A DNA stretch of 64,000 nucleotides from Candidatus Woesearchaeota archaeon. Its GTDB lineage: Archaea; Nanobdellota; Nanobdellia; Woesearchaeales; GW2011-AR9. The notes under the pieces were generated by a model, which did no database searches, was not told where the DNA came from, and saw only the letters and a list, made by a program, of their open reading frames with translations. Position numbers and translations under genes: made by a program. Numbering within the stretch: position 1 is the first letter of the stretch; every line of letters starts with the position of its first letter. Below are positions 36,316 to 60,793 of this stretch, piece by piece. The DNA lies in NCBI GenBank assembly GCA_018655525.1, contig JABIJM010000007.1, positions 25,766 through 89,765 on the forward strand, written 5' to 3'.

Positions 36316-36356
36316 AGCACTAGACAACTAGACAAGTACGGGTAGGAGTTATAAAG
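36316..36356 (+). promoter_or_regulatory. Upstream element of LAGLIDADG gene 1 (shared with gene 2)
   Basis: AGCACTAGACAACTAGACAAGTACGGGTAGGAGTTATAAAG; compare reverse complement of 60752..60793. Confidence 0.6.
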
Positions 36357-36396: not shown

Positions 36397-37104
36397 ATGA
36401 AAAACAAAGAGGTTAATCAAAAAATGAAAATAAATGAAGAACTTGCAGAACTAATTGGTATTATATTGGGTGATGGTCATATGCATACGAAACATAATTT
36501 ATTTACAATTGTAGGGAGCTTAGAAGATTACTATTATTATCAAGATTATGTTATGCCTCTTTTTGAAAAAATATCAGGAAAAATACCTTCAATAAGAAAA
36601 AGAAATGATAGAAATGCATATTATTTAATGCTTACTTCAAAAGATTTGATGTCCTACTTAACAAATAAAATTGGTATGACTCGTGGATCAAAAATTAATG
36701 CTTCAATCCCTAAAATTATCTTCTCAAACAAAAAATTTGCTCGTGCATTTTTGAGAGGTATATTTGATACAGATGGATGTCTCAAATTTTCAAAACAAAC
36801 TAAAAAAATTAATTATTATCCGAGAGTTCAAATAGCACTACAAAAATCTCATTTAGCTACAGAAATAGGAACATTACTCAAACTTGTTGGTTTCTCGTAT
36901 GGATCTTGGGAAGATTCTAGATTTAATGGGGCGATATATTATAACATCTCTGGGAAAAAGAACACTGAAAAATGGATTAAAGAAATTTCACCTTCAAATC
37001 CCGTTCATATAAGTAAATTTCATTTTTGGAAAAGATTTGGTTATTATATCCCAAAATCAACTTTAAAGTCTAGACTAGCAAGTTTAAAGACAAAAACTTT
37101 ATAA
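36397..37104 (+). CDS. LAGLIDADG homing endonuclease, free-standing, directly upstream of tRNA-Gln
   Basis: Two motifs: ELIGIILGDGH and FLRGIFDTDGCL. Confidence 0.9.
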   Translation: MKNKEVNQKMKINEELAELIGIILGDGHMHTKHNLFTIVGSLEDYYYYQDYVMPLFEKISGKIPSIRKRNDRNAYYLMLTSKDLMSYLTNKIGMTRGSKINASIPKIIFSNKKFARAFLRGIFDTDGCLKFSKQTKKINYYPRVQIALQKSHLATEIGTLLKLVGFSYGSWEDSRFNGAIYYNISGKKNTEKWIKEISPSNPVHISKFHFWKRFGYYIPKSTLKSRLASLKTKTL

Positions 37105-37151: not shown

Positions 37152-37251
37152 AGCCCCGTGGAAGAGTGTATTTATGCATTCTGCGGAGTGTAGTGGACTA
37201 TCATCGTGCCCTTTGGAGGCATGGACCGCAGTTCGAATCTGCGCGGGGCTA
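37152..37251 (+). tRNA. tRNA-Gln(UUG) with 27-nt non-canonical intron at about 9/10 (37161..37187)
   Basis: AGCCCCG/CGGGGCT+A, anticodon arm GTGCC-CTTTGGA-GGCAT, T arm CGCAG-TTCGAAT-CTGCG; removing 27 nt gives 73-nt cloverleaf. Confidence 0.85.
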
Positions 37252-59984: not shown

Positions 59985-60105
59985 GGGCCTATAGCTCAAT
60001 CTGGGAGAGCACTAGTTGCTGAAAAGCAAGTGATACTGAAGTTTCCAGATACCTGATTTTGGAATAGAAATCTAGGTGTTCAGGGTTCAAATCCCTGTAG
60101 GCCCA
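59985..60105 (+). tRNA. tRNA-Phe(GAA) with two introns (60016..60034 at 30/31; 60042..60069 at 37/38)
   Basis: GGGCCTA/TAGGCCC+A; GCTC/GAGC; exons CTAG + ACTGAAG + ATCTAG give stem CTAGA/TCTAG and loop CTGAAGA; T arm CAGGG-TTCAAAT-CCCTG; mature 74 nt. Confidence 0.82.
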
Positions 60106-60737
60106 CTTTCTTTTAATTTTTGATATCTATCTATAATTCTTTTATTTGAAAAACCAATCTCTTTATGCCATCTATTTACCATTCTATCTCCATTAATAGA
60201 GATCCTATATATTCTATTATAATCAGCTTGTTTATAATTTCTAAATCCTATCCGAAAATCCTGTGATAGTTTATCATGTAATTGATTTGCAAGTCTTTTA
60301 CTTGTTGTACTAATTTCTATTGTTGGATAATCTTTTCGATATCCTTTGTTTGCTAAAAACAAAGAACCATCTGTATCGACTATTCCTCGAATACAACATT
60401 TTAATAATTTTTTATTCTGTAATATCTCTTCAGGGATAAATATATTTTGACATTTTTCTTTATTGCATGGCATTTTTAATTCATAAACTAAATATTCAAC
60501 AAAACTTTTAGAATAAACTTTAAGTCTTAATCCTCGTTCTCTTATTTTAATGTGGGTTTTTAATTTTAATTCATTCCAGAATATTTCTGTCAAATGTTTA
60601 AAATATTCTTTTTCTTGTTTTGGATCACCTACAATCTCAACATAATATTGTGATATCTTTGGTTTATACCTAATGCAGCCATCTCCAATAATAGCACCTA
60701 TTAATTCTGCTTTTTTATCATTAAGAACCATAATCAA
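60087..60737 (-). CDS. LAGLIDADG homing endonuclease, free-standing, 3' end overlapping tRNA-Phe on the opposite strand
   Basis: AELIGAIIGDGC and CIRGIVDTDGSL motifs. Confidence 0.9.
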   Translation of the reverse strand: MIMVLNDKKAELIGAIIGDGCIRYKPKISQYYVEIVGDPKQEKEYFKHLTEIFWNELKLKTHIKIRERGLRLKVYSKSFVEYLVYELKMPCNKEKCQNIFIPEEILQNKKLLKCCIRGIVDTDGSLFLANKGYRKDYPTIEISTTSKRLANQLHDKLSQDFRIGFRNYKQADYNRIYRISINGDRMVNRWHKEIGFSNKRIIDRYQKLKESGPTGI

Positions 60738-60751
60738 TCTATCTCTTTACA

Positions 60752-60793
60752 CTATATAAACTCTGTCCGTACCTGTCGAGTGTGGGTTGTGCT
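60752..60793 (-). promoter_or_regulatory. Upstream element of LAGLIDADG gene 2 (shared with gene 1)
   Basis: Reverse strand AGCACAACCCACACTCGACAGGTACGGACAGAGTTTATATAG. Confidence 0.6.

Follow-up and report, generated by a model that had tools for sequence, protein, structure and literature searches.

The window, a 64,000-nucleotide stretch of a Candidatus Woesearchaeota genome, contains two free-standing LAGLIDADG genes, each paired with a tRNA gene that carries a noncanonical intron, and this pairing recurs with many tRNA isotypes in related archaea. These genes probably encode isotype-specific homing endonucleases that would cut intronless tRNA genes, with repair of the break co-delivering the intron, the tRNA end and the endonuclease gene.

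A predicted endonuclease gene overlaps a tRNA-Phe gene with two introns

The features of the tRNA-Phe locus are the following:

59985–60105, + strand: tRNA-Phe(GAA) gene with two introns (Rfam RF00005, 49.4 bits; own splitter; intronless orthologue in G001)
59985–60015, 60035–60041 and 60070–60105, + strand: tRNA-Phe exons (own splitter)
60016–60034, + strand: intron 1, 19 nt, noncanonical site 30/31, TTGCTGAAAAGCAAGTGAT (bulge-helix-bulge)
60042–60069, + strand: intron 2, 28 nt, canonical site 37/38 (relaxed bulge-helix-bulge)
60087–60731, − strand: predicted LAGLIDADG homing endonuclease gene, 214 aa (PF14528 LAGLIDADG_3, 2.5e-8)
60752–60761, − strand: TATA-like element GTTTATATAG, ~20 nt before the ATG of the endonuclease gene (read from sequence)
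60763–60782, − strand: shared upstream element CACTCGACAGGTACGGACAG ahead of the endonuclease gene (motif search)

The sequence-only reading had described a LAGLIDADG gene that overlaps the 3′ end of an intron-bearing tRNA-Phe gene on the opposite strand, and this description is confirmed, as the final 19 bases of the open reading frame are antisense to the tRNA 3′ end and its TGA stop codon lies opposite T-loop bases. In the interval that it gave, 59985–60737, the coordinate 59985 is the 5′ end of the tRNA, and the open reading frame ends at 60087; the start in the list of open reading frames, 60737, is a TTG two codons upstream of the ATG at 60731. The gene is free-standing, as it has its own open reading frame and TATA-like element, the latter a putative promoter, outside the tRNA introns.

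The tRNA gene reads GGGCCTATAGCTCAATCTGGGAGAGCACTAG, 19 nt of intron, ACTGAAG, 28 nt of intron and ATCTAGGTGTTCAGGGTTCAAATCCCTGTAGGCCCA. Intron 1 forms a bulge-helix-bulge with 4/4 central pairs (CACT/AGTG) and recurs at the identical site and with equal length in G010, and the bulge-helix-bulge of intron 2 is relaxed (score 2.5 of 4). ARAGORN run without introns did not detect the tRNA-Phe gene at 59985–60105, and with introns it detected the gene but named it Lys, which our splitter reassigned to Phe(GAA). Many of these tRNAs are overlooked or misnamed when ARAGORN and Rfam are used on their own, so we wrote our own splitter and scanner, and the resulting intron calls were checked against shuffled sequence (0 matches in 13 kb), Rfam hits and the intronless G001 locus. 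The splitter may fail or misplace introns in tRNAs with at least three introns (L034, L058), and it sometimes stretches intronless initiator-Met genes to a false far end, so initiator-Met genes were recounted by simpler rules, and L213 was read by eye as a gene with a 53/54 intron.

The orthologous tRNA-Phe gene in a genome of the same genus (G001) is 96% identical over all 74 nt and has neither of the two introns nor an endonuclease gene. The 5′ flank with the promoter region is ~90% identical to its counterpart in the window, and the first bases past the tRNA also align. This empty site confirms the intron boundaries and identifies both introns and the gene as extra relative to G001.

By its modeled fold and conserved residues the Phe protein is predicted to work as a LAGLIDADG endonuclease. 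Its AlphaFold2 model (mean pLDDT 93.8) has the LAGLIDADG fold, and the residues of the two acidic motifs, G16 D17 G18 and D119 T120 D121, are invariant in 46 alignment rows. The nearest solved structure found by Foldseek is I-Tsp061I (2dch, E 2.9e-11), followed by inteins, E-DreI, I-DmoI and others, with the bI3 maturase and I-AniI among the fold matches. Searching the PDB with phmmer and the single protein gave no match, and a profile search matched I-DmoI and I-Tsp061I.

The second pair in the window consists of a related gene and a tRNA-Gln gene:

36326–36345, + strand: shared upstream element AACTAGACAAGTACGGGTAG ahead of the Gln endonuclease gene (motif search)
36397–37104, + strand: second LAGLIDADG gene, 235 aa, of a Gln-specific clade (PF14528, 1.9e-9; tree)
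37152–37251, + strand: tRNA-Gln(TTG) gene with a D-stem intron (own splitter, ARAGORN)
37162–37188, + strand: tRNA-Gln D-stem intron, 27 nt (own splitter)

Here the endonuclease gene ends 47 bp ahead of the tRNA, and the D-stem intron site recurs beside related genes in G009, G031, G050, G095 and one named Woesearchaeota contig. The kinship that had been noticed between the two LAGLIDADG proteins was borne out when they were aligned (29% identity, E 1e-18).

Endonuclease genes accompany tRNA genes with noncanonical introns

Two pairings of endonuclease genes with noncanonically interrupted tRNAs had seemed hard to put down to chance, a judgement that the sequence-only reading staked on homologues being enriched next to tRNA genes. 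Both the genome itself and its relatives support it. An unbiased PF14528 search of the 964-kb genome (30 contigs) identified 11 free-standing genes and two probable inteins, and 8 of these 11 genes are tRNA-adjacent (Tyr, Leu-TAG, elongator Met, Gln, Asn, Phe, Trp and Ile-TAT), where chance would account for ~5% each (p 3e-9). Two further endonuclease genes, found by motif and Phe-protein searches, lie at initiator Met and between Arg and Cys. Noncanonical introns are present in 8/10 endonuclease-adjacent tRNAs of this genome as compared to 4/17 other tRNAs (p 0.007), with the adjacent Tyr and elongator-Met tRNAs having the 37/38 intron only.

A profile built from eight of the genome's own proteins matches in 97 of 155 genomes of the order; the genomes used here are mostly metagenome-assembled. 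When named genomes were scanned with the Phe protein no relative came up, but an alignment of the Gln clade did match. Among 192 distinct homologues, mostly from DPANN archaea, a tRNA gene lies within 130 bp of 139 (chance ~4%) and within 60 bp of 124, and it overlaps the endonuclease gene in 76. The tRNA is on the 3′ side of the gene in 127 of the 139 paired homologues, and the paired loci in named relatives belong mainly to Candidatus Woesearchaeota and also to Pacearchaeota, Aenigmatarchaeota, Diapherotrites and Micrarchaeota. The expected association with interrupted tRNAs is strong but incomplete, as noncanonical introns occur in 105/139 paired tRNAs versus 12/35 others in the same loci (Fisher 1e-5), while 18 of the 139 are intronless (the His clade, some Ala, some Arg-TCG and two Phe) and another 16 are interrupted only at the common 37/38 site.

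The same association is seen when tRNA genes of one isotype are compared. In the order, an endonuclease gene lies beside 4/8 initiator-Met genes with the 53/54 intron (one of them a decayed remnant) and within 200 bp of 0/45 intronless ones, with one at 248 bp. For tRNA-Gln the gene is found at 4/10 with D-arm introns versus 0/30 intronless, and for tRNA-Phe in the family at 2/3 with the 30/31 intron versus 0/9 without it. A stratified exact test over these three isotypes gives p 2.5e-8 with kinship ignored, and shared ancestry inflates the pooled counts. Introns without a gene, together with decayed endonuclease genes (in G002 and at the initiator-Met locus L204), fit a cycle of gain, decay and loss.

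Intron site follows the endonuclease clade, and gene side follows the intron

A tree of 128 endonucleases sorts by tRNA isotype (47 changes versus 96–107 in 100 shuffles), and the intron site tracks the endonuclease clade: it is mostly 53/54 for initiator Met and 30/31 for Leu-TAG, and of two separate Gln clades one has it at 9/10 and the other at 22/23. Orientation and flank differ within clades, for example in the Gln loci L009 and L061, indicating that gene and tRNA have been paired anew rather than preserved in a single fixed layout.

In 43/50 cases the gene is found at whichever end of the tRNA is closer to the noncanonical intron. With D-arm introns it is at the tRNA 5′ end in 18/21, and with variable-loop and T-arm introns at the 3′ end in 25/29 (p 4e-7; p 0.009 after collapsing by anticodon and site). 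For anticodon-stem introns the gene side divides 17 to 13. Having intron and gene on one side of the tRNA is as expected of a single inserted block, and the sequences suggest that the two invade the tRNA together.

Stranded tRNA ends lie beyond the endonuclease gene

At seven loci (L277, L150, L158, L163, L095, L031 and L140) a second copy of the gene-side tRNA end is present past the far end of the gene. These stranded ends score 18–33 against a reverse-complement control maximum of 15; four weaker candidates (L038, L044, L145 and L148) score at or just above this maximum and are only possible cases. Four stranded ends are bounded within ~5 nt of the intron site. That of L095 (initiator Met) begins at the 53/54 intron site and that of L163 (Gln) terminates at its own intron site, and those of L150 (Gln-CTG) and L277 (Ser-GCT, in the complete genome CP010426.1 of archaeon GW2011_AR20) cross the site in intronless form and terminate 3 nt and 5 nt past it, respectively. 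In L158 the stranded end terminates 8 nt short of the intron site, and in L031 it begins ~22 nt beyond it. No stranded end was seen at the tRNA-Phe and tRNA-Gln loci of the window. Partial matches at L055 and L142 are neighbouring tRNA-Arg genes, and L051, L096, L099 and L111 are whole-tRNA neighbours; all six were left out of the count.

The four stranded ends bounded near the intron site look like what is left of an originally intronless gene that was broken there. An insertion flush with the tRNA, as first proposed, understates the event, since the displaced ends and the preferred gene side point inside the tRNA, to the intron site.

Proposed mechanism and alternatives

The association, the isotype specificity, the side preference, the empty sites and the stranded ends are read from sequence, and from them we infer cleavage, target position, repair route and splicing. 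A free-standing LAGLIDADG homing endonuclease specific to one tRNA isotype (tRNA-Phe for the overlapping gene of the window) would recognise that tRNA gene where it is intronless and cut it at the intron site or close by, and break repair templated by a carrier would bring in the noncanonical intron, the part of the tRNA past it and the endonuclease gene alongside. The intron would split the recognition site and thereby render the invaded tRNA gene immune (at the 18 loci with intronless paired tRNAs immunity needs some other cause), and the host tRNA-splicing endonuclease would excise the intron from the RNA so that the tRNA is still functional. Where the flanks of two relatives do not match, the far junction would be closed without homology, leaving the recipient's own tRNA end stranded beyond the gene. 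Later the endonuclease gene would be lost and the intron would stay. We lean towards the broader view that such minimal mobile elements, each combining a short intron spliced by protein with a replacement tRNA end and a LAGLIDADG gene specific to one isotype, invade tRNAs from inside throughout the DPANN archaea and are a main source of noncanonical introns, and perhaps also of stray tRNA fragments and split tRNAs.

Alternatively, conserved tRNA genes could be targets next to which the free-standing endonuclease genes insert, and the introns, a separate matter of host protection or drift, would only mark tolerant tRNAs. The 18 intronless paired tRNAs and the frequency of introns without a gene (such as 4/8 initiator-Met genes with the 53/54 intron) agree with this model, as does the idea of Randau and Soll, as cited in PMC3293823, that introns shield tRNA genes. 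However, three observations would not be expected under this model, which we consider unlikely: the position of the gene at the intron-proximal end of the tRNA, the agreement between intron site and endonuclease clade, and the intronless stranded ends that break off at the intron site.

Stranded tRNA ends also resemble attL/attR repeats, as would result from integrase-type insertion at tRNAs by a larger mobile element that happens to carry an endonuclease gene, and a recombinase element accompanied by an intron and a fragment of the tRNA 5′ end is described in Caldiarchaeum (PMC3293823). In the loci read in detail, however, the insert consists of the endonuclease gene and its upstream region only, and no tyrosine or serine recombinase was found between the tRNA and the stranded end. 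Together with stranded ends that stop at intron sites differing by isotype, and with an endonuclease phylogeny that tracks isotype, this makes a larger element very improbable. That the proteins act as maturases, or otherwise help to splice the noncanonical introns in the adjoining tRNA, is scarcely credible: LAGLIDADG maturases exist, the fold search matched the bI3 maturase and I-AniI, isotype specificity would suit an RNA partner and only one PF01974 splicing endonuclease was found, but many noncanonical introns have no gene, decayed gene copies occur (G002 and L204), the catalytic acidic residues are conserved, and stranded DNA ends require DNA breakage.

Relation to known systems

In collaborative homing, described for cyanophage psbA and another phage case, a free-standing endonuclease is combined with an ORF-less group I intron (PMC3984707). 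The proposed invasion by isotype-specific homing endonucleases is similar in that the endonuclease gene lies outside the intron and the intron site is the proposed target, so that the two would move jointly. The co-inheritance expected of collaborative homing is also observed, as the gene is found within 200 bp of 8/18 initiator-Met and Gln tRNAs with the relevant intron versus 0/75 intronless ones, and G001 provides an empty site. In contrast to collaborative homing, the introns here are protein-spliced archaeal tRNA introns of mostly 13–60 nt, many tRNA isotypes are targeted, and the endonuclease gene, which extends into the host RNA gene, moves together with a replacement tRNA end. The modeled fold is that of the LAGLIDADG endonucleases of archaeal rRNA introns (I-DmoI and I-Tsp061I, with I-Tsp061I 2dch the closest), but those enzymes are encoded inside the intron, whereas the present genes lie outside very short tRNA introns. 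Archaeal introns of such size have been noted as too short for encoding a nuclease (PMC2738675, on cbf5 introns). The disruption of a Caldiarchaeum tRNA-Thr gene by an integrating element (Sugahara et al. 2012, PMC3293823) likewise combines a gained intron with a stranded tRNA end beyond the inserted element; that case, however, was attributed to a recombinase element in one population, and the present one is attributed to endonucleases, in many isotypes and lineages.

Short introns spreading to noncanonical tRNA positions were reported in a 2010 study, as cited in PMC4090602 and PMC4033280; the citing passages make no link to an endonuclease. PMC4090602, a 2014 review, describes the mechanism of archaeal tRNA intron transposition as unknown. 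Our literature search, in which subscription journals were little covered, found no work that makes such a connection between archaeal tRNA introns and homing endonucleases. Should the pairing work as proposed, the missing enzyme adjoins the tRNA gene rather than residing in the intron, and intron gain becomes testable in vitro with dozens of isotype-specific enzymes with predicted cut sites, for which the empty sites in close relatives and the decayed intermediates are useful. The pairing would then offer a testable answer to how archaeal tRNA genes acquire introns, would make essential tRNA genes hosts for selfish DNA in very small genomes, and would yield many new sequence-specific nucleases.

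Upstream element and further observations

The element shared by the two endonuclease genes of the window has the consensus CACT(G/A/C)GACA, followed by a TATA-like box. It occurs at 13 sites in the genome (control 0), and a related motif precedes 58 of 139 homologous endonuclease genes (shuffled 1). The 13 sites also include genes with RadC (L028), ORF6N (L027) and Bro-N (L024) domains, and the element perhaps marks a regulon of mobile or DNA-damage genes.

One splicing endonuclease gene was found (PF01974, G000:C8:4224-4484, in an open frame of 208 aa) despite the many noncanonical introns; a second subunit may be too divergent to see. Two loci, L001 and L007 (G000:C8 and G000:C23), have LAGLIDADG domains within ATPase-like and helicase-like proteins and are probably inteins. 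At L288, L309, L314 and L323 an endonuclease clade is found at intronless tRNA-His, with open reading frames partly overlapping or running through the tRNA. T-loop introns occur together with others in L013, L058 and L043 (Trp and probably Gly), with two or three introns in each tRNA. Finally, another LAGLIDADG gene (L002:1198-1788; G000:C23, ~99.6–100.1 kb) was seen by eye directly ahead of an RtcB-like (tRNA-splicing ligase) gene.
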